Assembly (NCBI RefSeq): GCF_000230695.2 | Contig: NC_020541.1 | Coordinates: forward strand, 682,001-746,000 | DNA from: Rhodanobacter denitrificans | GTDB lineage: Bacteria; Pseudomonadota; Gammaproteobacteria; Xanthomonadales; Rhodanobacteraceae | Length of the DNA: 64,000 bases | Reading direction: 5' to 3' | In this document: piece after piece, positions 6,384 to 64,000 of the stretch | How the letters are laid out: every line of letters starts with the position of its first letter | Position numbering within the stretch: the first letter of the stretch is position 1 | Program-made: the position numbers and the translations under genes | The notes under the pieces: model-generated | What the model saw: the letters and a program-made list of their open reading frames with translations, nothing else | Databases searched by the model: none | What the model was told of the DNA's origin: nothing

Positions 6384-6394
6384 TGCCAGTTACG

Positions 6395-8670: not shown

Positions 8671-8685
8671 CGGACGCCCATGAAA

Positions 8686-8709: not shown

Positions 8710-8737
8710 CCATGGTCCTGCCGTGTTGCCGGACGGC

Positions 8738-17346: not shown

Positions 17347-17462
17347 CACTCATCGAGACCGGCTGAGGGACAGGCCCTTTGAAGCCGGGGCAACCTGCGG
17401 AGCGTTTCCGCCACGGTGCCAACTCCTGCGGAGGTGCTTCGGCATCCACCGGAAGATGGGCG
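17347..17462 (+). promoter_or_regulatory. SAM-I (S-box) riboswitch
   Basis: The conserved S-box blocks are present in order: CATCGAGA, GGCTGAGGGACAGGCCC, TTTGAAGCC, GGGCAACC, then CGGTGCCAACTCC and the closing GGAAGATGGG. This is the S-adenosylmethionine aptamer that lowers expression of methionine genes when SAM is high. It lies in the 5' leader of metX-metB-hom, as expected for a methionine operon. Confidence 0.93.
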
Positions 17463-47238: not shown

Positions 47239-47888
47239 TCCTGATCGGCGCCGGCGAGTTCGCGCAGATCGCCTGCGAGTACTTCGAGCACGACAGCGAC
47301 TACGACGTGGCGGCCTTCGGCGTCGAACGCGCCTATCTGACGCAGCCGCGGCTGGCGGGCCATCCCGTGGTGGCCTGCGAAACGCTGGAGACGGACTACC
47401 CGCCGGGCGAGGTGGAGGTGTTTGTCGCGATCCCCGCCAGCCAGCTCAACCGGCTGCGCACGCGCCTTTACCAGGAGCTGAAACGCCGGGGCTACCGCTT
47501 CGCCACCTATGTCAGCACGCGCGCGTTCGTGTGGCGCAATGCCGAAGTGGGCGAGAACAGCTTCATCTTCGAAGGCAACGTGATCCAGCCTTTCGTGCGC
47601 ATCGGCAACAACTGCATCCTGTGGAGCGGCAACCACGTGGGGCACCGCACGGTCGTGCACGACAACGTGTTCATCGCCTCGCACGCGGTCGTTTCGGGCT
47701 ACTGCGAGATCGGCGCCGGCAGCTTCGTCGGCGTGAACACCACCTTCAACGACCATGTGAAGGTGGCGCCCGACAACGTGATCGGCTCCGGCGCGCTGGT
47801 GACGCGCGATACCGAACCGGGCCGGATCTACGTCGGCTCGCCGGCGCGCGCCGTGCCGGACAAGTCCAGCTTCGACGTGAAGCTTTGA
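47223..47888 (+). CDS. PglD/NeuD-like sugar N-acyltransferase (left-handed beta-helix)
   Basis: A 221-residue protein with a Rossmann-like N-terminus (VLIGAGEFAQIACEYFEHD) and hexapeptide repeats from about 100 (VGENSFIFEGNVIQPFVRIGNNCILWSGNHVGHRTVVHDNVFIASHAVVSG). His in GNHVGHRTVV is a probable catalytic base. Given fdtA and fdtB nearby, it likely acylates the 3-amino sugar nucleotide (FdtC role). It overlaps fdtA by 16 nt. Confidence 0.85.
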   Translation: MSRPLVLIGAGEFAQIACEYFEHDSDYDVAAFGVERAYLTQPRLAGHPVVACETLETDYPPGEVEVFVAIPASQLNRLRTRLYQELKRRGYRFATYVSTRAFVWRNAEVGENSFIFEGNVIQPFVRIGNNCILWSGNHVGHRTVVHDNVFIASHAVVSGYCEIGAGSFVGVNTTFNDHVKVAPDNVIGSGALVTRDTEPGRIYVGSPARAVPDKSSFDVKL

Positions 47889-48848
47889 ATGCCCATGGCC
47901 GCGTGGAGGAAGAAAGGGCTGGTATTCGACACCGCGCGGCATGGCGTGGGCGGCTGGATGCGCCACTCGGCGCTCACGCCGACCCCGTATCGCATCGACG
48001 GCGAGCGCATCCGCGTCTACGCGGGCTTTCGCGATGGCGATGGCGTCAGCCGCATCGGTTATGTCGACGTGCGCGCGGACGACCCGGCCACGATCGTGCG
48101 CGTCAGCGCCGAACCGGCGCTCGACGTCGGTCGGGGCGGGTGTTTCGACGACAACGGCATGATCCTGGGCGACGTGGTCGACGCGCCGGGCGGCCTGCAC
48201 CTGTTCTATGTCGGCTTCCAGCACGTGGCCAGGGCCAAGTTCCTGGCCTTTACCGGCCTGGCGATTTCGACCGATGGCGGCGAGCACTTCCGGCGCGTGC
48301 AGGAGACGCCGATCCTGGATCGCGCGCCCGGCCGCAGCACGATCGGCGCGGTGCATTCGGCCATCCATGAAGGTGGCCGCTGGCGGCTGTGGTACGCCGT
48401 GGGCGACGACTGGGAAATCATCGGCGGCAAGCCGTTTCCGCGTTACCACATCCGCTACGCGGAGACCGATGATCTGCGCGCCATGCCGCACGAAGACCAG
48501 GTCTGCCTGCTGCCGCGCGGCAGCGAGTACCGGATCGGGCGGCCGCGGGTGTACCGGCTCGGCGGCGGCTACGTCATGTACTTCACGCGGGGCAACCTCA
48601 GCGGCGAATACTTTCCCGGCATGGCCTGCAGCGACGACGGCATCCGCTGGGAACGCCGCGACGATGCGCTGGGCCTGGCGCTCTCCGCCAGCGGCTGGGA
48701 CTCGCGGACCATCTGCTACCCCGCGCTGATCCGCCAGCGCGACAAGCTGCTGATGTTCTACAACGGCAACGACATGGGCGTGGATGGCTTCGGTGTGGCC
48801 GAAGCCCTCGCGTCGCACCTCGACGGTGGCGCCGATGCCCGCGGTTAG
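47889..48848 (+). CDS. Five-bladed beta-propeller protein, glycosidase/phosphorylase-like
   Basis: A 319-residue protein without signal peptide. Recurring Trp/Tyr-rich blade motifs (RIRVYAGFRDGDGVSRIGYVDV, LHLFYVGFQ, RWRLWYAVGDDWE, GYVMYFTRG, KLLMFYNGNDMG) are typical of GH43/GH32/GH130-type folds. Acidic residues occur at blade starts but no catalytic set can be fixed. Relatives are common in O-antigen loci with unclear roles. A second ATG at 47895 is possible. It ends inside the start of the next gene. Confidence 0.75.
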   Translation: MPMAAWRKKGLVFDTARHGVGGWMRHSALTPTPYRIDGERIRVYAGFRDGDGVSRIGYVDVRADDPATIVRVSAEPALDVGRGGCFDDNGMILGDVVDAPGGLHLFYVGFQHVARAKFLAFTGLAISTDGGEHFRRVQETPILDRAPGRSTIGAVHSAIHEGGRWRLWYAVGDDWEIIGGKPFPRYHIRYAETDDLRAMPHEDQVCLLPRGSEYRIGRPRVYRLGGGYVMYFTRGNLSGEYFPGMACSDDGIRWERRDDALGLALSASGWDSRTICYPALIRQRDKLLMFYNGNDMGVDGFGVAEALASHLDGGADARG

Positions 48849-49767
48849 GCGCTACGTTCCCGCCGATGCCGACGCCTGGGACGCCCTGGTCGAGCGCTCC
48901 AGGAACGGCAACCTGCTGCACCGGCGCGGCTACATGGATTACCACGCCGATCGCTTCGTCGACTGCTCGCTGGTCGTCGAGCAGCATGGCCGGATCGTGG
49001 CGGTGTTCCCGGCGGATATCCGCGACAAGCTGGTGACCAGTCATGGCGGGCTCACCTACGCCGGACTGATCAGCGGCCAGGCCCTGCGTGCCGACGCGAC
49101 GCTCGCCGTGTTCGGACAGATGGCCGATGCCTACCGTGCGCTGGGCGCGCAGCGCATCGTCTACAAGGCGGTGCCGCACGTGTTCCATGCGTACCCGGCC
49201 GAGGAGGATCTTTACGCGCTGCAGCGCATGGGTGCCCGGCTGACGCGTCGCGACCTGTCCTCGGTGATTGCGCTGCAGGAACCGTTCCAGTTCACCGAAC
49301 CGCGCCGGCGCGCGGTCAGGAAGGCGGGGCGGGCAGGCATCAGCCTGCACGTCGGCACCGATCCGGCGTCGTTCCACGCGCTGCTGTCGGAGGTGCTGCG
49401 CCAGCATCACGTCGCGCCTACCCACAGCCTGCAGGAGCTGCGCCTGCTGCAGGCACGCTTCCCGCGGCAGATCGTGCTGCACGAGGCGCGCCGGGAGGGT
49501 GTCCTGCTGGCGGGCGCCCTCATCTACGATCTCGGCCGGGTGGTGCATACCCAGTACCTGGCCGCTGCGGAGGAGGGGCGCCGGCTGGATGCGCTGAGCT
49601 TCCTGCTCGCCGGGCTGATCGGCAGCACGTATGCGGACCGGCGCTACTTCTCCTTCGGCATTTCCACCGAACAGGCCGGGGCGGTGCTCAACAGCGGGCT
49701 GGTGACGCAGAAGGAATACTTCGGCGCGCGCGGCATCGTGCACGATTGCTACGAGTGGCCGCTGTGA
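48835..49767 (+). CDS. FemAB/GNAT-type acyltransferase
   Basis: A 310-residue protein resembling the FemAB-like acyl-transfer family used in surface glycan loci: [33 protein letters not shown] at the N-terminus, a central basic [12 protein letters not shown], and a C-terminal half with [17 protein letters not shown] and [10 protein letters not shown]. It probably adds an acyl or aminoacyl group to the sugar residue. The start at 48835 overlaps the previous gene by 14 nt; the stop overlaps the next ATG. Confidence 0.75.
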
Positions 49768-50924
49768 TGGGTCCCGACGTGATGAAGAACGCACCGGTGG
49801 AAGCCGCCCCGGGTGACGTCCCGTTCCTGAGCCTCCGGGAAGTCAATGCGCGTTACGCCGACGAGCTGAAGGCTGCCGCGGCACGCGTCATCGATTCGGG
49901 CTGGTATGTGCTCGGCGACGAGCTCGTCGCCTTCGAGCGGGAGTTCGCCGGCTGGTGCGGCGTGCGCCATGCCGTGGGCGTGGGCAACGGCCTGGATGCG
50001 CTGTCGCTGATCCTGCGCGGCTACAAGGAACTCGGCGTTCTCGGCGAGGGCGACGAGGTCGTGGTGCCCGGCAACACGTTCATCGCCAGCTTCCTGGCGA
50101 TCAGCGAGAACCGGTTGGTGCCGCTGCCGGTGGAGCCCGATGCGGCGACGTTCAACCTCGATCCGGCCTGCGTGGAGGCGGCGATCGGATCGCGCACGCG
50201 CGCGATCATGGCGGTGCATCTGTATGGCCAGCTGGCCGACATGCCGGCGCTGGCGGCGCTGGCCCGGCGGCGCGGCTTGCTGCTGATCGAAGACGCGGCG
50301 CAGGCGCACGGCGCGCTGCGCGACGGGCGCAGGGCCGGCACGTTCGGCGACGCGGCGGCCTTCAGTTTCTTCCCGGCCAAGAACCTCGGCGCGCTGGGCG
50401 ACGGCGGCGCGGTGGTGACCGGCGACGTGGCGCTGGCGCGGCGGGTCGCGGCGCTGCGCAACTACGGTTCCGAGGTGAAGTACCGCCACCTCTGCCAGGG
50501 GCTGAATTCGCGGCTCGACGAGATGCAGGCGGCGATGCTGCGGGTGAAGCTGAAGTATCTCGATGCGGACGTGGCCTGGCGCCGCCGGGTGGCGCATCGC
50601 TATCGTGACGGCATCCGCCACCCGCGGATCAAGTTGCCCGGCGCGGTGCGCGAGGAACAGCACGCCTGGCACCTGTTCGTGGTGCGCTGCGCCGAGCGCG
50701 ATGCGCTGCAGCGGCACCTGCGCGCACACGGCATCCAGGCCCAGGTACATTACCCGGTGCCGGCGCATCGGCAGCCCGCGTATCCCGCATTGCGCAGTGC
50801 CCGCCTGCCGCTGACCGAGCGACTGTGCGACGAGGTGTTGAGCCTGCCGCTGGGGCCGACCCTGGGCGATGACGGCGTGGCGCGGGTGATCGATGCCTGC
50901 AACGCGTTCGGAGGCGGGGCATGA
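49767..50924 (+). CDS. fdtB: DegT/DnrJ/EryC1 sugar-nucleotide aminotransferase (FdtB-like)
   Basis: A 385-residue PLP enzyme. [31 protein letters not shown] matches the family N-terminus; the PLP lysine is in [14 protein letters not shown] (about K210), with EDAAQAHGA upstream. It would aminate the 3-keto sugar nucleotide produced by FdtA. Starts at 49767 (overlapping the previous stop) or 49782 (MKNAPVEA) are both possible. The stop overlaps wzx by 4 nt. Confidence 0.88.
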
Positions 50925-52177
50925 ACATCGTGCGCGCCGGTTTCTACACCAGCCTCGCGACCGCCGCGCGGCTGCTCGCCGGGCTGGTGGCGATCAAGCT
51001 GGTGGCGTGGTTCGCTGGCCCCGAGGGCGTCGGCCGGCTCGGCCAGTTCATGAGCCTGATGTCGCTGCTGGCGGTGCTCGCCGGCGGCGGCATCAGCGCG
51101 GCCATCGTCAAGTATGTCGCCGAGTACCGCGACGATCCGCCCCGGCTGTCGCGCCTGCTGTCCGCCGCGCTGTGCTACGCGTTCTGCGCCTCCTGCCTGA
51201 TGGGCGGCGCGGCGCTGCTGCTCAGCCGGCAGCTCGCCGCGTGGCTGCTGGGCGACCCGGGCTATGCCGGCCTGATCCGCGTGCTCGCCGTCGCGCAGCT
51301 CGGCATCGCGCTGCTCAACTACATCCTCGCGGTGGTCAACGGCTTCATGGACGTGCGCCGGCTGGCCTTCATCCAGGCGGGCGGGGCGCTGGTCGGCATC
51401 GTGATGATGATCTGGCTGGCGCGCTGGCTGCATCTGTATGGCGCGCTGCTGGCGCTGGTGCTGGGCCAGCTGCTGTGGCTGGCGATCGCCTTGCCGGCGT
51501 GGTGGCGCAGCTCGTACTTCCGCCGCCGCATGCTGCGGCTGCACTACGACCGCGAGATGACCTTGCGGCTGGCGACGTTCTCGGTGATGACCCTCGCCTC
51601 CGCCCTGCTGCCGCCGCTGGTCAACATCGCCGTGCGCGACCATCTCGCGCTGCAGTTCGGCTGGGAACGGGTCGGCTACTGGCAGGCGGTCAGCAAGGTG
51701 TCGGACGCCTATCTGCTGTTCTTCACCGCGGCCATCAACATCTACTACCTGCCCAAGCTGGCCTCGACGCACGGCCGCGAGGCGCTGCTGGCCGAGCTGC
51801 GCAGCGCCGGCCGCCACGTCCTGCCGGCGGTCATCGTGCTGGCGGCCATGGTGTATGCGCTGCGCGGATGGGTGACCTGGCTGCTGTTCACGCCGGAGTT
51901 CGCCGCCGCCAACGCGCTGTACGGCCCGCAACTGGTCGGCGACGTCATCAAGGTCGCCTCCTTCGTCCTTTCCTACCTGATGCTGGCCAAGGCGATGACG
52001 GCGCTGTTCGTCGTCTCCGAATGCGTGTTCGCGGCCAGCTACCTCGCGCTGGTCTGGGTGTTTGCCGCGCGCTACGGCCTGGTCGGCGCGATGTACGCCT
52101 TCGCGCTCAACTACCTGCTGTATCTCGCCTTCAACCTGCTGGTTGCCCGGCGTTACCTGGGAGGGCTGCGACGATGA
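50921..52177 (+). CDS. wzx: Lipid-linked oligosaccharide flippase (Wzx/WzxE-like)
   Basis: A 418-residue protein with about 12 transmembrane helices and the polysaccharide-flippase layout. The N-terminus [34 protein letters not shown] resembles WzxE-type O-antigen translocases. It should flip undecaprenyl-linked repeat units to the periplasmic face. Start and stop overlap the neighbouring genes by 4 nt each. Confidence 0.88.
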
Positions 52178-53121
52178 GCGGCGACGTACCGGCGAACACG
52201 GCGGCGCTGCCGCTGGTGTCCGTGCTGATTCCCGCGTTCAACCACGAGCGTTTCGTGCGGCGCTGCCTGGACAGCGTGCTGCAGGATCCGTACCCGGCCA
52301 AGGAGCTCATCGTCATCGACGACGGCTCGACCGATCGCACCGCCGAACGGATCGCCGACTGGGTCGCGACGCATTGCATGGATATCCCGATCGAGTACGT
52401 GCATCGGGACAACCGCGGCATCGCGGCGACGCTGAACGAACTGGCGGCGCGCGCGAACGGCGAGTTTCTGCGCCCCGGCGCCAGCGACGACTACCTGCTG
52501 CCGGGCGGTCTCGATGCCCAGGTGCGCTACCTGCTGGCGCATCCGGACAAGGGCGCGGTGATCGGCGATTCGGTCGTCGTCGACCAGGACGGCAACCGGC
52601 TGCACGACAGCGGCATGGGCCTGCTTCGCGGCGGCAGCAAGAGCCTGTACAGCTCCGACGACGGCATCCGCCGCGCGATCATCAGCCACTGGGCCATCGG
52701 CGGGCCGGTGGCCTTGATGCGGCGGAGCGCGCTGGACACCGTCGACCGCTGGAGCGAAGGCCTGCGCATCGAGGACTGGGATCTGTTCCTGCGCCTGGCG
52801 GCCCGCGACGCGCTCGGCTTCATCGACGTCAGCGTCTGCGCCTACCGCATCCACGGCGCCAACCTGAGCCGGACGCGGCACACCGCCACGCGGATCGGCA
52901 ACCTCGCCGAGTCGCGCCAGGTGGCGCTGCGCCGGGCGTGCCTGTTCGACGAGCCGTACCGGACCCTGCTGCGGGCGCAGGCGCACCACATCGGCGCCAA
53001 GATCGCGTTCCTGCAGGGACAGCCATGGTCGCTGGCGCGGCATCTGCTCGCCTGGTCGTGGCTGCGACTGCTGTCGAAGCTGCGGCCTTCATCCGGACGT
53101 CATGGCGTGGAGGCGGCATGA
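52174..53121 (+). CDS. Family 2 glycosyltransferase
   Basis: A 315-residue GT-A enzyme with VSVLIPAFNHERFVRRCLDSVL and the nucleotide-binding DDGSTDRT (about 49-56), then a DXD-like SDDYLLPGG (about 106) and a C-terminal acceptor segment with RIEDWDLFLRLA. Adds one sugar to the repeat unit on the cytoplasmic side. ATGA overlap with wzx and 4-nt overlap with the next gene. Confidence 0.9.
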   Translation: MSGDVPANTAALPLVSVLIPAFNHERFVRRCLDSVLQDPYPAKELIVIDDGSTDRTAERIADWVATHCMDIPIEYVHRDNRGIAATLNELAARANGEFLRPGASDDYLLPGGLDAQVRYLLAHPDKGAVIGDSVVVDQDGNRLHDSGMGLLRGGSKSLYSSDDGIRRAIISHWAIGGPVALMRRSALDTVDRWSEGLRIEDWDLFLRLAARDALGFIDVSVCAYRIHGANLSRTRHTATRIGNLAESRQVALRRACLFDEPYRTLLRAQAHHIGAKIAFLQGQPWSLARHLLAWSWLRLLSKLRPSSGRHGVEAA

Positions 53122-54266
53122 AACGGTTGCTGCGCCTGCCGTCGGCCTATCTCGCGCTGCCGCTCCTGTTGGCCTGCGCGCTGACCCTGCTCACCTACGA
53201 TCTCCCGGTCGACTACCTGCAGGGCCTGCTGCTGCTGGCGGTGGTTGCCGCGGCGATCGGCTGGTTCGACGTGCAGGCGCGGATCAGGATTCCGCCGGCC
53301 TCGCGCTTTCGCGCGCGCAGCTACGCCGGCACCCGCGATGCGTTCGTGGCGCTGGCCTTCGCGGAGCTGGTCGCGGCTTTCTGCGTGCTCGACCTGGCGC
53401 TGTTCCCGATTCCGCTGTTCGGCAACCCGTCGTCCTACGCCGTGATGAAGGATGGGCACGAGCACGTCCGGCACGTGTCGGACATCTGCTGGGTGCTGCC
53501 GCCGATCGGGCTGTTGTGCGCCAGGAAGCGGTGGCTGCGCAACACGCTCATCGGCATCGGCTTCCTGTTTCCGATCCTGGTGATCGACCGCAACCGGGTG
53601 TTCGCCACGGTGTTCGCGTTCGCGCTGGTGGTCCTGCTGCGCCGGGACGAGGCCAGGCCGGTGCCGTGGAAGGCCGTCGGTTTGCTCGGCTTCGCCGGCG
53701 TCAGCGTGTTCTCGCTGCTCGGCATGCTGCGCTCCGGGCCGCTGGACTACCTCACCTTGCCGTTCAGCGCGATGTACCGCGCGGCGCCGGAAGGCATCAA
53801 GTGGCTGCTCCTCTACGCCACCGCCGGGCCGTACAACTTCAGCGCGATCCTGGCCAAGCACTACGGCAACGCCAGCTTCCTCATCCACCAGGTCGTGCCG
53901 CTGAGCGGCTCCGTGGCCACCGCGGGCACGGACATTCCGCTGGATGCGCCGACCATCAACGTGGGCACGGAGTTCTTCCCGTTCCTGATGGCGTTCGGCC
54001 CGGTCGGCGCGGTGGCCGCCGCCGTCGTGCTGTACGTGATGTTGCGCTGGAGCGTGTCGCGGCTGCGCGCCACGGTGTCGCTGTTTTCCCTGCTGATCTT
54101 CCTGCGGGTTTCCTACGTCTGCGTGATGGCGCCGTTCGCGCCGCAGGCCTACACGTGGACGAACGCCGGCTTCATCGGCCTGTGCCTGGTCATGCAGGTT
54201 GTCGCGGCCGGGCTGCCGAACCGGCGGACCCGCGCGCCGATCGTGTCTCCTTCCTCTCCCCAGTGA
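53118..54266 (+). CDS. wzy: O-antigen polymerase-like membrane protein (Wzy candidate)
   Basis: A 382-residue protein with about 10-11 hydrophobic helices and a periplasmic loop between about 215 and 280 rich in charged and aromatic residues (RAAPEGIKWLLLYATAGPYNFSAI). Low similarity but topology and location between a glycosyltransferase and the chain-length gene point to Wzy, which joins flipped repeat units. Confirmed only by position and topology. Confidence 0.72.
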   Translation: MKRLLRLPSAYLALPLLLACALTLLTYDLPVDYLQGLLLLAVVAAAIGWFDVQARIRIPPASRFRARSYAGTRDAFVALAFAELVAAFCVLDLALFPIPLFGNPSSYAVMKDGHEHVRHVSDICWVLPPIGLLCARKRWLRNTLIGIGFLFPILVIDRNRVFATVFAFALVVLLRRDEARPVPWKAVGLLGFAGVSVFSLLGMLRSGPLDYLTLPFSAMYRAAPEGIKWLLLYATAGPYNFSAILAKHYGNASFLIHQVVPLSGSVATAGTDIPLDAPTINVGTEFFPFLMAFGPVGAVAAAVVLYVMLRWSVSRLRATVSLFSLLIFLRVSYVCVMAPFAPQAYTWTNAGFIGLCLVMQVVAAGLPNRRTRAPIVSPSSPQ

Positions 54267-54276: not shown

Positions 54277-55095
54277 ATGGAACAAGACGAAATCTACCTG
54301 ATCGACCTCTGGCGGATCTTCACCCGCGGCTGGATCTGGTTCGCGGGCGTGCTGATCCTGACCCTGGCCGGCACCTATGCCTTCGCGCACCTGGTGAAGC
54401 GCCAGTGGCAGGCGACCGCGTGGATCCAGATCGCCCAGGTCGGGCAGGTGCCGCCGGGCCAGGATCCGAAGGTCGAGCCGCTGTTGCGCGTGATCGAGCG
54501 GCTGGAGCTGGTGCCGTTCGAGAACGAGATCCTGGAAGGCGCCGGCCATGCGCGCGATTCGTCCGTGGCAAGGCTTTATCGCAAGAGCCTGAAGCTGGAG
54601 CCGATGCCCTATGCCGGCCCGCTGGTCCGCCTGACAGTGCGGGCCTATTCCCGCGAGCAGGCGGCCGAACTGGCCACGGCGACGGTGGCCCGGTTGGCCG
54701 CGGTCCACCGGCGCCAGGAAGAAGCGCCGCTGCAGGCGGCGCGCGCGCGACTCGCCCGCATCGAGGCCGACCTGCAGGTCGCCGAGGGCGACCTGGCCCG
54801 CTATCAACGGGCGGCCGCACCGGGCAGCAGGGATGCGCAGGGTGCGCTGCTGGCCAGCCTGCTGCTGGCGAACAAGAACGAGGAGATCCGCGGCTTGCGG
54901 CAGGCGCGGATGGATCTCATGGAACGTCTCGGCCCGAGCTACACCTATGCGACGTCGATGATGTGGCCGGTCTACGTGCCCGACAAGCAGGCCTTCCCGA
55001 ATCCCGAACTGACCTGGGGCATCGGCCTGCTGCTGGGCTTGCTGCTGGGCGCATGCGCGGCCGTGGCGAGGGCCGGTCGACGGCAGGGGGCCTGA
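54277..55095 (+). CDS. wzz: Chain-length determinant protein (Wzz-like)
   Basis: A 272-residue protein with an N-terminal helix (about 17-38), a coiled-coil-rich periplasmic part (about 140-225) and a C-terminal helix (about 246-265) after a Pro-rich VPDKQAFPNPELTWG, the Wzz plan. It sets polymer length with Wzy. It begins 10 bp after wzy. Confidence 0.85.
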   Translation: MEQDEIYLIDLWRIFTRGWIWFAGVLILTLAGTYAFAHLVKRQWQATAWIQIAQVGQVPPGQDPKVEPLLRVIERLELVPFENEILEGAGHARDSSVARLYRKSLKLEPMPYAGPLVRLTVRAYSREQAAELATATVARLAAVHRRQEEAPLQAARARLARIEADLQVAEGDLARYQRAAAPGSRDAQGALLASLLLANKNEEIRGLRQARMDLMERLGPSYTYATSMMWPVYVPDKQAFPNPELTWGIGLLLGLLLGACAAVARAGRRQGA

Positions 55096-55115
55096 ACCCG
55101 GCGATGCATGCGCGG

Positions 55116-55201
55116 CCGGCGCCGTTCAACCAAACCGGCGCCGGCGCGCACTCACGGAGCGAATCCATGAAGTGCCGGGGCCGACCCGTGACGGGGTCGG
55201 C
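55116..55201 (+). terminator. Two hairpins after wzz
   Basis: CCGGCGCCG (55116-55124) pairs with CGGCGCCGG (55136-55144); GCCGACCC (55180-55187) pairs with GGGTCGGC (55194-55201). No T-run follows either. They fill the largest gap in the polysaccharide cluster (158 bp) and may end the fdtA-wzz transcript before the methyltransferase gene. Confidence 0.45.
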
Positions 55202-55253: not shown

Positions 55254-56138
55254 ATGCGTGGACTGCACAAGCTGCGCCCCGGGCACCGCGCCGTGCCCGC
55301 CGGAAGCGCCCGCCAGCACCCGCGGCACTCGCCGCCGGACGAGGCACAGCTGCTCGACACGCAGCGCGCGTTCGACAGCGTCGCCGCCGACTACGACGGA
55401 CCCCGCGGCAACAACGAGCTGATCCAGCGCATGCGACTGATCCTGTGGGATACCGTGCACAGCGTCGTGCCGCCTGGCGCGCGCCTGCTGGACCTGGGCT
55501 GCGGCACCGGCATCGACGCGCTGGAGTTTGCGCGGCGCGGCTTCCATGTCGTCGCCACCGACTGGTCGCCGCTGATGGTCGAACGCACGCGGGCGCGGGC
55601 GGCGGCCGCGGCCATGCAGTCGCGCGTGACGGTCGCGCACCTCGGCATCCAGCAACTGGCCCGGCTCGACGACGAGTTTGACGGCATCTATTCGAACTTC
55701 GGTCCGCTGAACTGCGTGCCGGACCTCGGCGCCGTCGCCACCGAATGCGCGCGCCTGCTGCGCCCCGGCGGCAGCCTGGTGTTCTCGGTGATGGGCCGGA
55801 TCTGTCCGTGGGAGCTGGGGCACTACGCCCTGCGCGGCCGCTTCAAGCGCGCCGGCGTGCGCGCCGCGCGTGGCGCGACGGCGGTGGGCATGAACCGCCA
55901 CACGATCTGGACCTGCTACTACCTGCCGCGCGAGTTCTACCGTGCCTTCAGCGGGCAGTTCTCGCTGCAGGGCTATCGCGCGCTGGGCCTGTTCCTGCCG
56001 CCGCCCTACCTGGTGGACTACTACCGCCGCCGGCGCCGCTGGTGCGAGCGCCTCGGCCGGCTCGACGATCGCCTGGGCGCGCTGCCGCTGCTGCGCGACA
56101 TGGGCGACCATTTCCTGATCGTGCTGCGACGGCGCTGA
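55254..56138 (+). CDS. Class I SAM-dependent methyltransferase
   Basis: A 294-residue enzyme. The AdoMet motif is LLDLGCGTGIDALEFARRGF (about 79-98), then TDWSPLMVERTRARA and an FGPLNCVPDL segment replacing motif IV. The C-terminal ~100 residues are arginine- and aromatic-rich (FLPPPYLVDYYRRRRRWCERL). The ATG at 55254 has GGAG upstream; GTG at 55233 is possible. It starts a second sub-operon with an amidohydrolase 4 bp downstream. Substrate unknown. Confidence 0.85.
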   Translation: MRGLHKLRPGHRAVPAGSARQHPRHSPPDEAQLLDTQRAFDSVAADYDGPRGNNELIQRMRLILWDTVHSVVPPGARLLDLGCGTGIDALEFARRGFHVVATDWSPLMVERTRARAAAAAMQSRVTVAHLGIQQLARLDDEFDGIYSNFGPLNCVPDLGAVATECARLLRPGGSLVFSVMGRICPWELGHYALRGRFKRAGVRAARGATAVGMNRHTIWTCYYLPREFYRAFSGQFSLQGYRALGLFLPPPYLVDYYRRRRRWCERLGRLDDRLGALPLLRDMGDHFLIVLRRR

Positions 56139-56142
56139 GTCG

Positions 56143-57369
56143 ATGGACGTCCTGCAGGCCGCGATGGATGTCAGCTTGTGCCGGGCCGTCTCGGTCACGC
56201 CCGCGGGCCGCTCGCGCATGCCGCTGCCGATCCGGGGCGGGCGGATCGGCGCGTCGCTGGCGGCGCGGGCATACCGGCTCGACCTGCACGACCATCTGCT
56301 CTTCCCCGGCCTGATCAACGCGCACGAGCATCTGCACGTCAACACGGTGCCGCCGCTGCCAGCCCGCGCGCCATTCCCGAACAGCTACGCCTGGATCGCC
56401 GCGTTCCGGGCGCACTTCGAGGAGCCGGCGGTGATCGCCGCGCTGCGGGTGCCGAAGGCGCTGCGGCTGCGCCACGGGGCACTGAAGAACCTGCTTGCCG
56501 GCACCACCTGCGTGGCGCATCACGACCCCTGGCACCCGGCGCTCGACGAGCCGGATTTCCCGGTCGCCGTGCTGCGCGACTACGGCTGGAGCTATGCGCT
56601 GGGCTGGCCCGATTACGGCCCGCCGGCGCAGTCGAGCTTCGCCGCCACGCCTGTCGACCGGCCCTGGCTGATCCATCTGGCCGAAGGCACCGACGCGATC
56701 GCGCAGGCGGAACTGGCCCGGCTCGACGAGATGGGTTGCCTGGCGGCGAACAGCGTGCTGATCCACGGTGTCGGCCTGCGCGAGCACGACGTCGACCGGG
56801 TGATCGAGCGCGGCGCGGCGGTGGTCTGGTGTCCGACCAGCAACCGCAACCTGCTCGGGCGCTCGCTGGACCCGCGGCGCCTGTGCGCGGCCGGCCGGCT
56901 CGCGCTGGGCAGCGACTCGCGGCTCAGCGGTGCGCGCGACCTGCTCGACGAAATGCGCGGCATCGTCGCCCGCGGCGAGCTGGGCGCCGGGCCGTTGCTG
57001 GACCTGGTCACCAGCCAGGCCGCGCGCATTCTGCGGCTGCCCTCCGGCGGCAGCCTGGCGCCGGGCGCGCTGGCGGACCTGGTGATCGTCGAGGACCGCG
57101 GCGGCGACGAGCGCTGCGGCCTGGTCGGCATCGAGCGCAGCCGGATCCGGGCGGTGGTGCGCCACGGCGTGCCGCGCATCGCCGATCCGGATTTCGCCGA
57201 ATGGTTCGACGTCGCCGGCATGGACGCGGTGCCGGTGACGCTGGACGGCAGACCGAAACTGCTGGCCAGGCCGCTGGCCGACCCCGCGCTGGTGGCGCTC
57301 GAACCGGGGCTCGAACTGGCCGCCGCGCACCGCGCGCACGACCTCGCCATGGAGGCCGGCCAGTCGTGA
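56143..57369 (+). CDS. Metal-dependent amidohydrolase (deaminase/chlorohydrolase type)
   Basis: A 408-residue enzyme of the amidohydrolase superfamily. Metal ligands: H61 and H63 in INAHEHLH, then WLIHLAEG and VLIHGVG histidines, and the Asp in LGSDSRLSG. The CPTSNRNLLG motif is shared with cytosine/adenosine deaminase-like enzymes. It could hydrolyse or deaminate a small molecule attached to the glycan or its precursor. Tightly packed between two methyltransferase genes (4-bp gap before, 4-nt overlap after). Confidence 0.85.
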   Translation: MDVLQAAMDVSLCRAVSVTPAGRSRMPLPIRGGRIGASLAARAYRLDLHDHLLFPGLINAHEHLHVNTVPPLPARAPFPNSYAWIAAFRAHFEEPAVIAALRVPKALRLRHGALKNLLAGTTCVAHHDPWHPALDEPDFPVAVLRDYGWSYALGWPDYGPPAQSSFAATPVDRPWLIHLAEGTDAIAQAELARLDEMGCLAANSVLIHGVGLREHDVDRVIERGAAVVWCPTSNRNLLGRSLDPRRLCAAGRLALGSDSRLSGARDLLDEMRGIVARGELGAGPLLDLVTSQAARILRLPSGGSLAPGALADLVIVEDRGGDERCGLVGIERSRIRAVVRHGVPRIADPDFAEWFDVAGMDAVPVTLDGRPKLLARPLADPALVALEPGLELAAAHRAHDLAMEAGQS

Positions 57370-58067
57370 CGACGCGTCCGCCGATGCTGCTGCCGGCCGA
57401 GGCGTATGCCTTGTGGGCAGCCAGTTACCCCGCGCATGCGCACAACCCGGTGATGCAGGCGGAGGAGCGCGCCATGCTCGGGCTGATGCCGGCCACGCTG
57501 CATGGGCAGGCCGTGCTCGATGTCGGTTGCGGCAGCGGACGCTACATGCTGCATGCGCTGCGCCGTGGTGCGGCGCGCGTGATCGGCGTGGATCTGTCGT
57601 CGCCGATGCTCGCGCGCGCCGGCGTCGAGCTGGCCGCCTGGCAGGCCGCCGCGGACATCGACCTGGTGCAGGGCAGCCTCGAAGCGCTGCCGGTGCCGGA
57701 TGCGCGGGCGAGCCTGACCGTGTGCGGCCTGGTCGTCGGCCATCTCGACGACCTGCAGCACGCGCTGGCCGAGCTGTGCCGGGTGACCCGGCCCGGCGGC
57801 ACGCTGCTGTGCAGCGACGTGCATCCGATCGGAGATGCGCTGGGCTGGCTGCGCGACTTCAAGTCGGACGGCCGGCACTACGCCGTGCGGCACACGCGGC
57901 ACCTGTACGGCCACTGGCACGCGGCCTGCGCCGCGCTCGGACTGCGCATCGAGCAGGTGCTGGAGCCGATGCTCGACCCGGCCGACATTCCCGCCGGTGC
58001 GCGTTTCGACCGCGCCGCGCTGGCGGTTCCCGTGGCGCTGGTGTTCCGGCTGCGGCGCGAGCCGTGA
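57366..58067 (+). CDS. Class I SAM-dependent methyltransferase (UbiE-like)
   Basis: A 233-residue enzyme: VLDVGCGSGRYMLHALRRGAARVIGVDLS (motif I and acidic loop, about 49-77), SLEALPVPDARASL and LCRVTRPGGTLLCSDVHP. Start GTG at 57366 overlaps the amidohydrolase TGA. The N-terminal YALWAASYPAHAHNPVMQAEE is typical of UbiE/BioC-like enzymes. Substrate unknown; radical SAM gene 25 bp downstream. Confidence 0.87.
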   Translation: MTTRPPMLLPAEAYALWAASYPAHAHNPVMQAEERAMLGLMPATLHGQAVLDVGCGSGRYMLHALRRGAARVIGVDLSSPMLARAGVELAAWQAAADIDLVQGSLEALPVPDARASLTVCGLVVGHLDDLQHALAELCRVTRPGGTLLCSDVHPIGDALGWLRDFKSDGRHYAVRHTRHLYGHWHAACAALGLRIEQVLEPMLDPADIPAGARFDRAALAVPVALVFRLRREP

Positions 58068-58092
58068 TCCCCTCGTCCTGCAGGCCCTTGCC

Positions 58093-59610
58093 ATGACCGA
58101 TGCGGCACGCACGCTGTTGATCAACCCGACCATCACCTCGCGGCGCAGCGCGCGCTTCCCGTTGTCCCTGCTGCACCTGGCGGCCGCGCTGGAGCGCAGC
58201 GGCAACGACAGCCGGATCATCGACGGCAACGTCGACCGCGATTTCGTCAACGACGCCCTGCGCGCGCTGGAGGAGGGCGCCTTCGATGCGGTCGGCGTCA
58301 GCGTCATGGGCGGTCCGCAGCTGGCGCCGGCGATCGCCGTCTCCAGCGTGATCCGCGCACGCTTTCCAGCGGTGCCGATCGTCTGGGGCGGCTATTTCCC
58401 CACGCTCAACCCGGACGCGGCGCTGGCCGCGCCCTACGTCGACTACGCGGTGCGCGGGCAGGCCGGGGAGACCCTGCCGGAGCTGATCGCCGCGCTGGGC
58501 GGCAGGGCCGAGGCGAAGCTGGCGGCCATCGGCGGGCTGTCGTGGAAGCAGGGCGGCGCGGTCGTGCACAACCCGAACCGCCGTTTCACCCTGGCCGACC
58601 ACGGCCGGGTGCTGCCCTACGACAAGCTCGGCGACCCGCGGCGCTACCTGGCGCGCACCTATCTCGGCCGCCGCACCGTGGCGCACCAGGCGTCGGTCGG
58701 CTGCCGCTTCCGCTGCACCTTCTGCGGCGTGGCCGCGATGTTCGGCGGCACCACCGTGCTGCCGGCGGCGCAGCAGCTCGAACGCGATCTGGGCTACCTC
58801 AAGCACACGCTGGGCGCGGACTCGGTGCAGTACTTCGACAACAATTTCTTCGATCGCGAGCGGGACATGCTGCCGCTGCTCGAAGTGATGGCCCGGTTCG
58901 AGATGCCGTGGTGGTGCTTTGCCCGCGCCGACGCCCTGCTCAACCTGTCGGAACAGGCGTGGAAGCTGGTGCGCAAGAGCCGGCTGCGGATGGCGTACAT
59001 CGGCGCGGAGTCGCCCAACGGGCAGATGCTCAAGGAGATCCGCAAGGGCACGCGGCCGGACCAGACCATGGCGGTGGTGGAGTTGTGCCGCCGCCACGGC
59101 GTGATCCCCGAGCTGTCCTTCATGGTCGCGCCGCCGGAGAACACGGCCGAGGAGACCGAGCACACCTTCGAGTTCATCCGCGCGCTGAAGCGGGTCAATC
59201 CGCAGTCGGAGGTCGTCATCTACGTCTACACGCCGCTGCCGGAAAACAGCCGGCACGAGCAGGACCGCGCGCGGCGTCCGGCGAAACCGCTGTTCGGTCT
59301 CGACGGCGAACCGGTGGCGTTTCCGACCACGCCGGAGGAGTGGGCGCAGCCGCGCTGGGTCGACTACACCTGCCATGCCGACGCGCCCTGGCTCGACGAC
59401 CGGCTGCGCCGGCGCATCCGGGATTTCGTCACCGTGCTGCGCTGCCGCTTTCCCACCGTGCAGGACCTGCGCTCGCCGCCGTGGGCCAAGCGCAGCCTGA
59501 GCGCGATGGCGCTCTGGCGCTACCGCTACGGCAGGTACGACCGGCCGTGGGAACTGGAGCTGGCCAACCGGCTGGTGCGCCTGCGCATGCCGCAGGTCTC
59601 GGGCCTCTAG
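58093..59610 (+). CDS. B12-binding-type radical SAM protein
   Basis: A 505-residue protein. The N-terminal ~140 residues form a B12-binding-like fold (LLINPTITSRRSARFPLSLLHLAAALE, VGVSVMGG, VWGGYFPT); the radical SAM cluster motif is C204-x3-C208-x2-C211 (VGCRFRCTFCGVAA). Later motifs YFDNNFF, GAESPNGQMLKEIRKG and ELSFMVAPPENT follow the family. No clear cobalamin DxHxxG is seen. Such enzymes methylate or rearrange unreactive carbons. Substrate unknown. Confidence 0.85.
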   Translation: MTDAARTLLINPTITSRRSARFPLSLLHLAAALERSGNDSRIIDGNVDRDFVNDALRALEEGAFDAVGVSVMGGPQLAPAIAVSSVIRARFPAVPIVWGGYFPTLNPDAALAAPYVDYAVRGQAGETLPELIAALGGRAEAKLAAIGGLSWKQGGAVVHNPNRRFTLADHGRVLPYDKLGDPRRYLARTYLGRRTVAHQASVGCRFRCTFCGVAAMFGGTTVLPAAQQLERDLGYLKHTLGADSVQYFDNNFFDRERDMLPLLEVMARFEMPWWCFARADALLNLSEQAWKLVRKSRLRMAYIGAESPNGQMLKEIRKGTRPDQTMAVVELCRRHGVIPELSFMVAPPENTAEETEHTFEFIRALKRVNPQSEVVIYVYTPLPENSRHEQDRARRPAKPLFGLDGEPVAFPTTPEEWAQPRWVDYTCHADAPWLDDRLRRRIRDFVTVLRCRFPTVQDLRSPPWAKRSLSAMALWRYRYGRYDRPWELELANRLVRLRMPQVSGL

Positions 59611-59614: not shown

Positions 59615-60751
59615 GTGCGCGCCGTGCACGTCGCGCAGCTCAATTTCCTGCCCGCGCCGGCGGGACTGGCGCCAGCCGAGGTGCTGGAACGCTGGCACTC
59701 GCTGGTGGACATCGCCGAGGCGGCCGCCAGCGCCGGCACCCGCGTGTCGGTGATCCAGGCGGCGGCACGCGAGGAGCGGATCACGCGTGGCGGCATCGAC
59801 TATCGCTTCGTCGACATCCGCGGGCTGGCGACGGCGGCCGACCGGAGCCGCCGTTTTGCCGGCGTGCTCGCCGAGATCCGCGCCGACGTGCTGCACGGGC
59901 ACAGTCTCGGTTTTGCCGAGGACGCTTTCGCCATCGCGCAGTGCCTGCCGCGGCTGCCGATCATCCTGCAGGACCACGCCGATCGGCCGCCGCGCCGGTG
60001 GCGGCGGCCGCCGTGGCGGCGCTGGTATGCGGCACTGGCCGGCGTCGCCTTCACCGCACCCGAACTGGCGCGGCCGTTCACCCGGGCCGGACTGTTCGCG
60101 CCGCACACGCGGCGGTTTGCGATTCCCGAATCCAGCAGCCGCTTCAGTGTCGGCCATCGTGCCGACGCCCGCGCCGGAACCGGCCTGCATGGCGATCCCT
60201 GCGTGCTGTGGGTGGGGCATCTGAATGCCGGCAAGGACCCGTTGAGCGTGCTCGACGGCGTCAGCCTGGCGGCGCGGCGGCTGCCTGGCCTGCAGTTGTG
60301 GTGCGCCTTCGGCAGCGCGCCGCTGCTCGGCGCGGTGCGGGCGCGCATCGCGTGCGACCCGCAGCTTGCCGGGCGCGTGCACTTGCTGGGCACGGTGGCG
60401 CACGCGCGGGTCGAGCTGCTGATGCGCGCGGCCGACCTGTTCGTCTCGGGCAGCCGCGCCGAAAGCTGCGGCTACGCCGCGCTCGAGGCGCTGGCTTGCG
60501 GCGTCACTCCGGTGCTCACGGATATTCCCTCCTTCCGCGCGCTGATCGGCGACCGCGGCATCGGTCGCCTGTGGGCTTGCGGCGAGGCGACGCAGCTGGC
60601 CGAGGCGCTGGTCGCTGCCGCTGCCGGCCGGCCGCCGGCGGCACAGGTGCGCGCCCATTTCGACGCCGCGCTGTCGTTCGCCGCGGTGGGCCGGCAATGG
60701 GCCGATGCCTACGTGCAGGTGTGCGACGAGCGGTGCCGGAGGGCGTCGTGA
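59615..60751 (+). CDS. Family 4-type glycosyltransferase
   Basis: A 378-residue GT-B enzyme. The donor-binding half has VLWVGHLNAGKDPLSVLDGVSLA, HLLGTVAHARVELLMRAADLFVSGSRAESCGYAALEALACGVTPV; the E-x7-E motif is in this last segment. Start GTG at 59615, 4 bp after the radical SAM gene. The stop overlaps the next GT start. Confidence 0.88.
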   Translation: MRAVHVAQLNFLPAPAGLAPAEVLERWHSLVDIAEAAASAGTRVSVIQAAAREERITRGGIDYRFVDIRGLATAADRSRRFAGVLAEIRADVLHGHSLGFAEDAFAIAQCLPRLPIILQDHADRPPRRWRRPPWRRWYAALAGVAFTAPELARPFTRAGLFAPHTRRFAIPESSSRFSVGHRADARAGTGLHGDPCVLWVGHLNAGKDPLSVLDGVSLAARRLPGLQLWCAFGSAPLLGAVRARIACDPQLAGRVHLLGTVAHARVELLMRAADLFVSGSRAESCGYAALEALACGVTPVLTDIPSFRALIGDRGIGRLWACGEATQLAEALVAAAAGRPPAAQVRAHFDAALSFAAVGRQWADAYVQVCDERCRRAS

Positions 60752-61878
60752 AACTCGCGCTGGTGGTGCCGGGCGGGGTGGATCGCAGTGGCGAGTACCG
60801 GGTGATCCCGGCCTTGCTGGCGCTGATCGAACGACTGGCGCGCAGCCACGAGGTGCATGTCTTCGCGCTGCAGCAGGAAGCGGCGGCGGGCCGCTGGGAG
60901 CTCGCCGGCGCGAGCATCCACAACATCGGCGACGGCTGGACCCGGCTGCGCGCGATCGCGGCGATCCGCGCCGAGCATCGCCGCGCGCCGTTCGATCGGA
61001 TCCAGGCGATCTTCTCCGGCTCGTGCGGCCTGGTGGCCGTGGCCGCGGCCAGGCTGCTGCGGCGGCCGAGCCTGGTGCATGTCGCCGGCGGCGAGCTGGT
61101 CGCGCTGCGCGCGATCGGCTACGGCGGGCGGCTGCGATGGAAGGGGCGGCTGCGCGAGGCATGCGTGCTGCGTGCCGCCGATGTCGTCACGGCGGCCAGC
61201 GCACCGGTCATCGAGGCGCTGCGCGCACTCGGCGTGGTGGCCCGGCGCGTGCCGCTCGGCGTCGACCTGCAGGCCTGGCCGCCGCTCGCGCCGCGCGTGC
61301 GCCGCACCGGCCCGGCGCGGCTGATCCACGTGGCCAGCCTCAACCGGGTGAAGGATCAGCCGACCCTGCTGCGCGCGCTGGCCGTGCTTCGCGACGGCGG
61401 GCTGGCCTTCCGCATGGATGTGGTCGGCGTGGACACCTTGCAGGGCGAGGTGCAGCGGCTGGCCGGCCGGCTGGGGCTGGCGCACTGCGTCCGCTTCCTC
61501 GGGTTCCGGACGCAACGCGAATTGCGCCCGTTGATGGAAGCGGCCGACCTGCTGGTGATGTCCTCGCTGCACGAGGCCGGTCCGCTGGTGTTGCTGGAGG
61601 CGGCGGTGGCCGGCGTGCCGACGGTCGGCACGGCGGTCGGGCATCTGGTGGAATGGGCGCCTGCGGCGGCACGTGCGGTGCCCGTCGGCGACTGGGCGGC
61701 GCTGGCCGAGGCGATCGGGCAGCTGCTTGCCGACGAAGCGCTGCGCCTGCGACTGGCCGCGGCTGCGCAGCGCCGGGCGCTGCCGGAGGACGCCGACTGC
61801 ACGGCGCGGTTGTTCGAAGCGCTGTATCGGCACTCGCCCGCCGACGCGCAGGGTCAGGCCGGTTTGCGGGCCACGTAA
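60748..61878 (+). CDS. Family 4-type glycosyltransferase
   Basis: A 376-residue GT-B enzyme: LVVPGGVDRSGEYRVIPALLALIERLA at the N-terminus, LIHVASLNRVKDQPTLLRALAVL, and VRFLGFRTQRELRPLMEAADLLVMSSLHEAGPLVLLEAAVAGVPTVGT with the E-x7-E motif. Start GTG at 60748 overlaps the previous TGA. Its 3' end overlaps the convergent methyltransferase gene by 25 nt. Confidence 0.9.
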   Translation: MKLALVVPGGVDRSGEYRVIPALLALIERLARSHEVHVFALQQEAAAGRWELAGASIHNIGDGWTRLRAIAAIRAEHRRAPFDRIQAIFSGSCGLVAVAAARLLRRPSLVHVAGGELVALRAIGYGGRLRWKGRLREACVLRAADVVTAASAPVIEALRALGVVARRVPLGVDLQAWPPLAPRVRRTGPARLIHVASLNRVKDQPTLLRALAVLRDGGLAFRMDVVGVDTLQGEVQRLAGRLGLAHCVRFLGFRTQRELRPLMEAADLLVMSSLHEAGPLVLLEAAVAGVPTVGTAVGHLVEWAPAAARAVPVGDWAALAEAIGQLLADEALRLRLAAAAQRRALPEDADCTARLFEALYRHSPADAQGQAGLRAT

Positions 61879-62813
61879 AGTCGGAACTTCGAAGGCTCAC
61901 GCCGGCCGCGGAGCTTCGCCGCGAAGGGGCGCAACGCCCAGCGCAGGCCGTACCACGGGCGGTGCACCTCCCAGCGGATCGACAGCGCAGCGGCCATCTG
62001 CTGCAGGCGCTCGTCGGTGAGGTAACCCAGGCTGGCGAGGGCGTCGGCCGCCGTGCCGTGGCGGCGCAGGAAGGCTTCGCGACGCTCGGCCAGCATCTGC
62101 CGGCCGCTCGCGTCGCGGGCGTACCACGGCGTGTCGCTGATGACCACCATGCCGCCCTTGCGCACGCAGCGCAAAGCTTCGCGCAGGCACGCTTCGCCGT
62201 CTTCGGCGTAGTGGAAGGAGGCATTGAACACGGCGGCGTCGAACTGCGCGTCGGCGAACGGCAGGCGACGGATCTCGGCCTGGAAGCGCGCAAACAGCGC
62301 CGGCAGGCGCGCCCGATAGTGCCGGGCCGCGCCCAGCCCGTCGCGATCGTTGCCGAGCAGGTCGACCGCGGTCGGCCGATACCCGGCCAGCGCCAGGCGA
62401 AAACTCATCCAGCCGTTGCCCGCGCCGAGGTCGAGGATGCGGCCCCCTTGCGGCAGCTGCCGCACGATGCAGTCGTAGCTGCGCGCGCGCATCCGCCACT
62501 GGTCGCGATTCCTGCCGCTGGCGTCGTGGTAGGGCAGGGCGAGGTAGAAATCCGCGCTTGCGCTGCCGCGGCCTTCGGCGGCCCTGATCCGCTCGTAGTC
62601 GGCGATGAAGCGCGCGTGGCGGGCGGCCGATTCCGGCGCCAGGGCGTGCGCGATGCCGTCGTCGATCACGATGGCGAAGCCGCAGGCCGGACAATCCAGC
62701 GTGTCGATGGCGCTTCCGCAGCGAGGGCAGCGCAGCCGCAGGCCCGCCAGCGCCGCCGCGTCCGCGGCATGGCTGGCCGGTGACGGGTCCGAGGCTGGTT
62801 GCGCCCGCGACAT
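61854..62813 (-). CDS. Class I methyltransferase with N-terminal zinc ribbon
   Basis: A 319-residue protein. An N-terminal CPRCG...CPACG pair (about 29-45) forms a zinc ribbon, followed by a methyltransferase fold: GGRILDLGAGNGWMSFRLALAGY (about 122-144), AVDLLGNDRDG, FDAAVFNASFHYAED and CVRKGGMVVISDTP. Transcribed toward the main cluster, with its start 9 bp after the partial nucleotidyltransferase gene, so these two form an opposing operon. Confidence 0.87.
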   Translation of the reverse strand: MSRAQPASDPSPASHAADAAALAGLRLRCPRCGSAIDTLDCPACGFAIVIDDGIAHALAPESAARHARFIADYERIRAAEGRGSASADFYLALPYHDASGRNRDQWRMRARSYDCIVRQLPQGGRILDLGAGNGWMSFRLALAGYRPTAVDLLGNDRDGLGAARHYRARLPALFARFQAEIRRLPFADAQFDAAVFNASFHYAEDGEACLREALRCVRKGGMVVISDTPWYARDASGRQMLAERREAFLRRHGTAADALASLGYLTDERLQQMAAALSIRWEVHRPWYGLRWALRPFAAKLRGRREPSKFRLYVARKPA

Positions 62814-62822: not shown

Positions 62823-64000
62823 CTACGGCGCGCGCGCCGGGCCTTCCAGCGCCGCGCGCACCGCGAACATGGTGTCCATCCGCGGCACCGGCCGGGTCAG
62901 CCAGGCAAGGATGCGCCGCCCGTGCGACAGGCCGGCCCAGTCCGGCCCCTGCTGCAGCCAGAGCTGCGTGCGCAGCATGTCGGCGCGCTCCCGGCTGGCC
63001 TCCCGCGTGGGCCTGATCCGCTGACCGAGGCAGCGTCCGAGCTCGCCGACGGAACGCGACCATTCGATGCCGTGCAGCGCATGCAGCCACAGATCGGAGC
63101 ACGAAACGCAGGTCAGGGTGTGGCGGCGCGACGCCATCCGCAGCAGGGCGGGGCAACCGGTGGCGAGCCGTGCCAGCACGTCCGTCGCGATCGAGTCCGG
63201 GTAGTAGCGCGCGGTCAGCAGCAGCGGCGGCAGCGCATACCAGGGAGCGTCGCCGGCCGGGTCGTCCCACAGCACGTTCCAGTCGCCCGCGGACAGGCGT
63301 GCCGACAGCAGCGCGATGTCGTGCAGATGGAGCAGGCGCAGGCTGCGGTTGCACAGGTTGCCGGCGGCATGCAGCAGCAGGTGGTTCATCAGCGCGCCGG
63401 GCGACGGGTAGGGGTTCAGTCCGGGCCGCGGCTGCGGCGGACGGATGCGCGCGGTGATGTCCACCGCGGTGACCGGCAGCCGCTCCTGGATACGCGTGTG
63501 CAGCTCGATGTTGACCGGCGTGTCGCGGTGTTCGCCGAGGCCGGCAAAGGGCGCGCCGGCCGCCGGCCTGAACACCCGGTGCTTCCACGCGACGAACGAC
63601 TCCACGTAGCCCAGTTCCTGCAGCAGCGCGATCGCCGGCGCGGCATCCTCGGCGCGGACCAGCAGGTCGATGTCGGCCATCGGTCGGTCGCCGGGCGCGT
63701 AGAGGCCGAGCGCGTGCAAGGCGGAGCCCTTCAGCGCGACGAGGGCGATGCCGCGAACGCGGGCGCCGGCATCGATGCGCTGCAGCAGCGTGGCGATGCG
63801 CCGATGGCGATGCTCGACGTGTGCGCGCTGGTCGGCCAGGAACGATCGCCAGGATGGGTGCTGCCACGCACAGCGTCGGCACAGCAGCGGCGACACCCCG
63901 TGCACGGCGGCGGCCACCGCCGCCAGCTGCCATTCGAGCGCGCTCCATGGCGGCGTGGCGCCGCCCGGCCGCGCCAGCTCCGCGGCGAGCGCCTCGGTGG
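62823..64000 (-). CDS. Nucleotidyltransferase-fold protein (NTP_transf_5-like), N-terminus outside window
   Basis: Open to the right edge, so the true start lies beyond base 64000; 391 codons are visible. The core has ALKGSALHALGLYAPGDRPMADIDLLV (G-S and D-x-D of the polymerase-beta-like nucleotidyltransferase fold), then NIELHTRI and ALMNHLLLHAAGN. Relatives sit in polysaccharide and lasso-peptide-type loci with unknown substrates. Operon with the zinc-ribbon methyltransferase. Confidence 0.8.
   Translation of the reverse strand, partial: TEALAAELARPGGATPPWSALEWQLAAVAAAVHGVSPLLCRRCAWQHPSWRSFLADQRAHVEHRHRRIATLLQRIDAGARVRGIALVALKGSALHALGLYAPGDRPMADIDLLVRAEDAAPAIALLQELGYVESFVAWKHRVFRPAAGAPFAGLGEHRDTPVNIELHTRIQERLPVTAVDITARIRPPQPRPGLNPYPSPGALMNHLLLHAAGNLCNRSLRLLHLHDIALLSARLSAGDWNVLWDDPAGDAPWYALPPLLLTARYYPDSIATDVLARLATGCPALLRMASRRHTLTCVSCSDLWLHALHGIEWSRSVGELGRCLGQRIRPTREASRERADMLRTQLWLQQGPDWAGLSHGRRILAWLTRPVPRMDTMFAVRAALEGPARAP

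Follow-up and report, generated by a model that had tools for sequence, protein, structure and literature searches.

The window analysed here was a 64,000-nucleotide stretch of the complete 4.23-Mb genome of Rhodanobacter denitrificans (positions 682001-746000), and the analysis concerned a block of genes that begins behind wzz, the gene of a polysaccharide chain-length regulator, and ends at window position 61878. The genes encode two S-adenosylmethionine (SAM)-dependent methyltransferases (MT1 and MT2), an amidohydrolase (AH), a B12-binding radical SAM protein (RS) and two glycosyltransferases (GT4a and GT4b).

A conserved six-gene block behind wzz

A preliminary description of this DNA had reported four tightly packed genes, MT1 to RS, inside a glycan locus. 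This was borne out: the four open reading frames (ORFs) lie on one strand with spacings of 4 bp, -4 bp (an overlap) and 25 bp, they were identified at the family level by Pfam (Table 1), and Wzz precedes MT1. Chance ORFs were excluded, because orthologues of AH and RS were found in 93 and 92 of the 233 genomes of the family, respectively. The conserved unit proved to be larger than the four genes first described. In 40 loci, each taking in about 20 kb around the AH gene and drawn from the 93 AH-bearing family genomes and thus chosen for carrying AH, MT1, AH, MT2, RS, GT4a and GT4b occurred all together in every case, in one order and on one strand. GT4a and GT4b were inseparable from the four genes, and the unit is therefore one of six genes, MT1 through GT4b. 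The median identities to the window were 76% for MT1, 73% for AH, 72% for MT2, 76% for RS, 66% for GT4a and 75% for GT4b. Wzy was found in 37 of these loci, and the flanking NT and MT3 genes were less constant (Table 1). The D, G, C, G, T and G of the D-x-GCGTG motif of MT1 were kept in 119 of 119 rows.

Two hairpins described after wzz are also present. Their arms, read by eye, are about 10 bp long and lie at 55115-55145 and 55180-55201. The 171-nt stretch between wzz and MT1 folded at -86.5 kcal/mol (z -2.33), 4 of 200 shuffles being equally good, and no terminator-like match was found in it. A riboswitch ahead of the block was considered and rejected, the sole Rfam match in the window being a SAM riboswitch 38 kb away.

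Table 1. Features of the block and of the adjoining polysaccharide genes (window positions).
Feature	Positions	Strand	Evidence
FdtA-type dTDP-sugar 3,4-ketoisomerase	46801..47238	+	PF05523 159.6 bits
NeuD/PglB/VioB-type hexapeptide sugar acyltransferase	47223..47888	+	TIGR03570 190.9 bits, cut-off 160.8 passed
GHlike, conserved protein	47889..48848	+	no Pfam family; relatives in 34/40 loci
FemAB/GNAT-like protein	48826..49767	+	Acetyltransf_6 30.9 bits; TIGR03019 42.6 bits, under cut-off
DegT-type aminotransferase, near QdtB/FdtB-type sugar 3-aminotransferases	49764..50924	+	PF01041 360.5 bits; PDB 3frk QdtB E 1.6e-112
Wzx-type flippase	50921..52177	+	PF13440 47.4 bits
GT2 glycosyltransferase	52174..53121	+	PF00535 88.7 bits
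Putative Wzy-type polymerase	53118..54266	+	TIGR04370 23.9 bits, cut-off 40; no Pfam family; relatives in 87/233 family genomes
Wzz chain-length regulator	54277..55095	+	PF02706 33.6 bits, cut-off 25.5
Pair of hairpins in the wzz-MT1 gap, lacking a T-run	55115..55201	+	arms read by eye
MT1, class I SAM-dependent methyltransferase	55254..56138	+	PF13649 (Methyltransf_25) 69.3 bits
AH, deaminase-fold amidohydrolase	56143..57369	+	Amidohydro_1 PF01979 56.2 bits, cut-off 25
MT2, class I SAM-dependent methyltransferase	57366..58067	+	PF08241 (Methyltransf_11) 80.5 bits
RS, B12-binding radical SAM enzyme, optional member	58093..59610	+	PF02310 62.6 bits, cut-off 32.1; PF04055 54.4 bits, cut-off 29.5
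GT4a glycosyltransferase	59615..60751	+	PF00534 52.8 bits; in 40/40 loci
GT4b glycosyltransferase	60748..61878	+	PF00534 83.0 bits; in 40/40 loci
MT3 methyltransferase, inconstant member	61854..62813	-	PF08241 56.7 bits; in 7/40 loci
NT, PF14907 nucleotidyltransferase, continuing beyond window end	62823..64000	-	PF14907 105.3 bits on whole ORF in L072; in 34/40 loci

The genes upstream of the block include predicted Wzx and Wzz proteins, by which the locus was classed as a putative Wzx/Wzy-dependent polysaccharide locus. Only one recognisable glycosyltransferase, GT2, was found in this part. The GHlike protein matched a beta-1,2-mannobiose phosphorylase family weakly (NF052550, 23.7 bits when 450 are needed).

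Past the block, a second conserved group was observed (window 62823-64000; 3324-10064 of locus L072), consisting of the PF14907 nucleotidyltransferase, another B12-binding radical SAM protein, an HPr-kinase-like protein under the Pfam cut-off and an ATP-binding cassette (ABC) exporter. In the Dyella locus L110, too, genes for a nucleotidyltransferase, an HPr-kinase-like protein and a radical SAM protein of similar type come after the block.

Distribution and export contexts

The window-type Wzy was found in 87 of the 233 family genomes, and all of them fell among the 93 genomes with AH. The six AH genomes without it (G060, G065, G071, G072, G073 and G075) all belong to one genus, g20. The sole AH genome of the family without RS was G073, which is 73% complete and has AH at a contig edge. 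Sampled across the order, AH was recorded in 65 of 328 genomes, confined to two families. In class- and phylum-level samples, AH was found in 1 of 369 and 2 of 299 genomes and MT1 in 2 of 219, the window's own genome being counted in each, and none was seen beyond the order.

A protein search, in which 8000 candidates were scored and the best 120 of 2622 proteins were listed, covered close rather than remote relatives; among the proteins listed, those near to AH are named Rhodanobacter. The best 80 of 484 named relatives came mostly from Rhodanobacter, Dyella, Luteibacter, Frateuria, Xanthomonas and Pseudoxanthomonas and from metagenome-assembled genomes, two of which were titled outside the order (L102, Eremiobacteraeota; L152, Hydrocarboniphaga). 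Many of these named loci are from the same genomes as the 40 family loci, and the two sets are not independent. A plasmid search gave nine AH records below 60% identity, one for RS and none for MT1; six of the ten matches were inspected, and no matching set was seen in their annotations (L073 carries no annotation). No matches were found in viral contigs. Distant amidohydrolases (26-30% identity) were observed on plasmids L075 and L077, the former adjoining an annotated restriction endonuclease and AbiH and the latter Fic and HNH proteins, possibly a defence-type context.

Two export contexts of the block were distinguished. In loci from Rhodanobacter, Dyella, Luteibacter, Frateuria and Xanthomonas it adjoins a Wzx/Wzy locus, and relatives of both Wzx and Wzy were in view in 68 of the 80 named loci, as derived from pair counts. 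In three genomes, G060 (L059 and L105, the same contig judging by length), G075 (L060) and that of L147, no Wzx/Wzy relative was in view and the block was followed by an ABC-2 permease (PF01061) and an ATPase with a Wzt_C domain (PF14524). These genomes were classed, from those domains, as carrying putative ABC-transporter-dependent polysaccharide loci; an extra methyltransferase stood between block and exporter in two of the three, and the window-type Wzy was absent genome-wide from G060 and G075 at E 1e-20. The preliminary description had counted the finding of the set in unrelated contexts with a known product as evidence against its reading. A second context does exist, but it too is one of glycan export, and it has no known product.

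Several other genes were observed near the block or in the window. An outer-membrane porin of the MtrB/PioB family was present upstream of the block in L105, L147, L148, L156 and L158, together with a multihaem cytochrome c in L148; these are genes of the extracellular electron transfer type, in genomes without a Wzx/Wzy part in view. Upstream of the block, L105 also carried a gene for a FolE2-type GTP cyclohydrolase I (4340-5245). A Pfam-called subtilase was found near the block in L148, with ORFs resembling an extracytoplasmic function (ECF) sigma factor and an anti-sigma protein, and the window itself has a subtilase and an ECF sigma factor at 41399-43916, with a protein read as an anti-sigma factor between them. 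At 45159-46514 lies an ORF that looks conserved; it carries a CxxCH-type motif close to its start and matches no Pfam family. The distant riboswitch (17347-17462) is of the SAM-I (S-box) type, scored 81 bits against a threshold of 44.4, and precedes an alpha/beta-hydrolase-fold gene that may encode an acyltransferase of the methionine pathway.

The amidohydrolase and the optional radical SAM protein

AH was assigned to the amidohydrolase superfamily, within the HxxE deaminase/chlorohydrolase group. The residues predicted to bind metal and take part in catalysis (HxH, H, E, H and D) were kept in 121 of 121 rows, among which some genomes are repeated. Against the named deaminase families (TRZ/ATZ, methylthioadenosine/S-adenosylhomocysteine (MTA/SAH), guanine, HutF and 8-oxoguanine) the best score was 57.4 bits when 362 are needed (NF006681), and none of the 25 rows listed out of 33 reached an NCBIfam cut-off. 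The chemistry on a small nitrogenous compound that had been proposed earlier was not upheld: it had been derived solely from the amidohydrolase family name, and AH lies under the cut-offs of all the named deaminases that it matched.

At residue 126 of AH, 101 rows have H and 20 have Q. This was the single switching column among 138 conserved in RS-bearing rows; the switch occurred in Xanthomonas without RS, and the residue adjoins the invariant H127-D128. A tie to the loss of RS was not supported, since the independently RS-less genome G1075 keeps H126, and the H126Q change is better read as a mark of the Xanthomonas lineage.

RS has predicted B12-binding and radical SAM domains of the kind found in cobalamin-dependent radical SAM enzymes. 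The cysteines of its CxxxCxxC motif (C204, C208 and C211) were kept in 97 of 97 rows, and no NCBIfam cut-off was reached, the best match being BchE with 94.1 of the required 481.35 bits.

The presence of RS was scored in the 75 named loci that had both MT2 and GT4a in view. It was absent from 20 of them, all titled Xanthomonas, and present in a 21st Xanthomonas locus, that of X. bonasiae. On the scale of whole genomes, RS was lacking in all 11 genomes of g459 and, among the six of g468, in G1075 alone. Its absence in two genera implies at least two losses, if RS is ancestral. A by-eye comparison of the MT2-GT4a spacer in four Xanthomonas loci (L128, L133, L138 and L145) revealed no remnant of RS in these four. 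RS is not an essential member of the set as first described.

Where RS is present, its history differs from that of its neighbours. The pairwise distances among RS-bearing loci correlated with those of AH at r = 0.40 for RS and at 0.74-0.82 for eight other genes, and in 16 Rhodanobacter rows at least five changes on well-supported branches were counted in the RS tree and two in the AH tree, the latter being a quick tree. The simplest reading would be an in-place exchange of RS by recombination.

Proposed function of the block

Given the family-level gene identities, the six-gene synteny, the co-occurrence with Wzy, the two export contexts and the loss and exchange of RS, we consider it likely that MT1, AH, MT2, RS, GT4a and GT4b act as one block that builds and tailors a glycan. 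A polysaccharide repeat unit normally needs more than one glycosyltransferase, and the block probably supplies two further glycosyltransferases, with their tailoring, to the Wzx/Wzy part. This division of one GT2 and two GT4 enzymes, read from the gene content, would explain why, within the family, every Wzy genome has AH, whereas the block can dispense with this Wzy.

We inferred the glycan nature of the product, the order of steps and every substrate as follows. GT4a and GT4b would add two sugars to a lipid-linked glycan, one or more of which would be O- or N-methylated by MT1 and MT2. AH would use the HxxE-assisted, mononuclear-metal chemistry typical of its fold to hydrolyse a group, most simply an N-linked one, on one sugar or its precursor. 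RS may introduce an optional extra change. Addition of a C-methyl group by means of cobalamin and SAM is the most likely one, and an AprD4-like deoxygenation is the alternative. The loss and exchange of RS are more in keeping with a decoration at the periphery than with a step in backbone synthesis. In most carriers, the product would join a repeat unit containing a 3-amino-3,6-dideoxyhexose, which Wzx would flip, Wzy polymerise and Wzz regulate in length, and in a few it would be exported through a Wzm/Wzt-type transporter.

Several observations weigh against this proposal. Wzy itself falls under its family cut-off, and the predicted model of RS was the least confident one (mean predicted local distance difference test score, pLDDT, 74.4), with residues 203-213 of the cluster loop below 50. 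The nearest solved relatives of AH act on nucleosides and not on glycans. Fold similarity says nothing about substrate, and families outside the fold listing are not excluded. Among the ORFs called within about 10 kb of the block in L148, L156 and L158, there was no Wzx/Wzy relative and no Wzm/Wzt; in these loci MT3 and NT come after the block. In four of the 87 Wzy genomes (G127, G128, G137 and G183) the block and Wzy are 8.8-14 kb apart or on different contigs; in G002, they are separated by a break between contigs. The hairpin gap and the wide separation in the four genomes show that the block and the Wzx/Wzy part do not always form a single operon. The block, being apart from Wzy or without Wzx/Wzy in some genomes, is thus its own unit travelling with glycan export genes.

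The same hairpin gap, the four genomes with a distant Wzy and the five loci without Wzx/Wzy in view (L105, L147, L148, L156 and L158) would also suit a block that produces a glycosylated small molecule or a glycolipid apart from the polysaccharide, its adjacency to polysaccharide genes being fortuitous. We regard this as unlikely, given that all 87 Wzy-bearing family genomes have AH, that the alternative exporter has a Wzt_C domain and that the Wzx/Wzy part offers a single recognisable glycosyltransferase.

AH could instead be a scavenger of by-products with no glycan role, which deaminates the S-adenosylhomocysteine or 5'-deoxyadenosine released by MT1, MT2 and RS and thereby eases product inhibition. 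The properties of AH make this quite improbable. It scored 56.5 bits against the TRZ/ATZ hydrolase family NF006549, which needs 540 and to which the genome's own paralogue matched with 713.1 bits. In an alignment with the paralogue, V97 of AH takes the place of the WPxE glutamate, and AH lacks the PHAPY segment and has a shorter stretch from strand 3 to strand 5; the identity is low and the alignment is not decisive. We take the WPxE glutamate and the PHAPY segment to be nucleoside-binding in TM0936. AH is also retained where RS has been lost.

Decoration of the lipopolysaccharide (LPS) core or of a protein or lipid glycan, and not of a repeat-unit polysaccharide, would suit a block that works with two different exporters or with none in view, and was considered very unlikely in view of the persistent pairing with Wzx, Wzy and Wzz in 37 of the 40 loci.

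Within the proposed glycan role, a more specific scheme was put forward tentatively. The deaminase-fold AH might have been recruited to a nucleotide- or lipid-linked sugar, where it unmasks or deaminates a nitrogen that is then methylated by MT1 and MT2, and RS, swapped or lost from one lineage to another, might naturally switch a C-methyl (or deoxy) modification on or off in a surface polysaccharide common to Rhodanobacter, Dyella, Luteibacter and Xanthomonas. If a glycan role is correct, a conserved, little-studied surface glycan is common to an entire order of soil and plant-associated bacteria, and AH would be a deaminase-fold enzyme acting on glycan precursors. The natural presence, absence and exchange of RS provide a ready-made comparison for finding its role.

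To our knowledge, the chemistry of the block has not been assigned to any known glycan pathway. The preliminary description knew of no pathway with this set, and no paper on it turned up in the open-licence full text of PubMed Central, a source outside which most subscription papers fall, so an earlier description is possible. The excerpted part of a Xanthomonas review treats xanthan, LPS and cyclic glucans (PMC8042644), that of a transposon-sequencing study of X. hortorum names the wxc LPS cluster (PMC12573098), and the amidohydrolase in the excerpt of a third paper is allantoate amidohydrolase (PMC6337780).

The locus resembles Wzx/Wzy loci with an FdtA/FdtB-type 3-amino-sugar pathway in its FdtA, aminotransferase, sugar acyltransferase, flippase, glycosyltransferases and Wzz. 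It differs from them in that its tailoring block is fixed and combines two methyltransferases and a deaminase-fold hydrolase with a B12 radical SAM gene that can be exchanged, and in being conserved across genera and not strain-variable. AH differs from the MTA/SAH/adenosine deaminase group (4f0s, 4gbd, 4dzh and TM0936) by scores far under the family cut-offs and, in the low-identity alignment, by the shorter strand 3-5 segment and the lack of the WPxE glutamate. Compared with the cobalamin-dependent radical SAM methyltransferases (CysS, TsrM, OxsB-fold, MgmA and TokK) and the diol dehydratase AprD4, RS reaches none of the NCBIfam cut-offs and is naturally lost and exchanged inside a glycan block.

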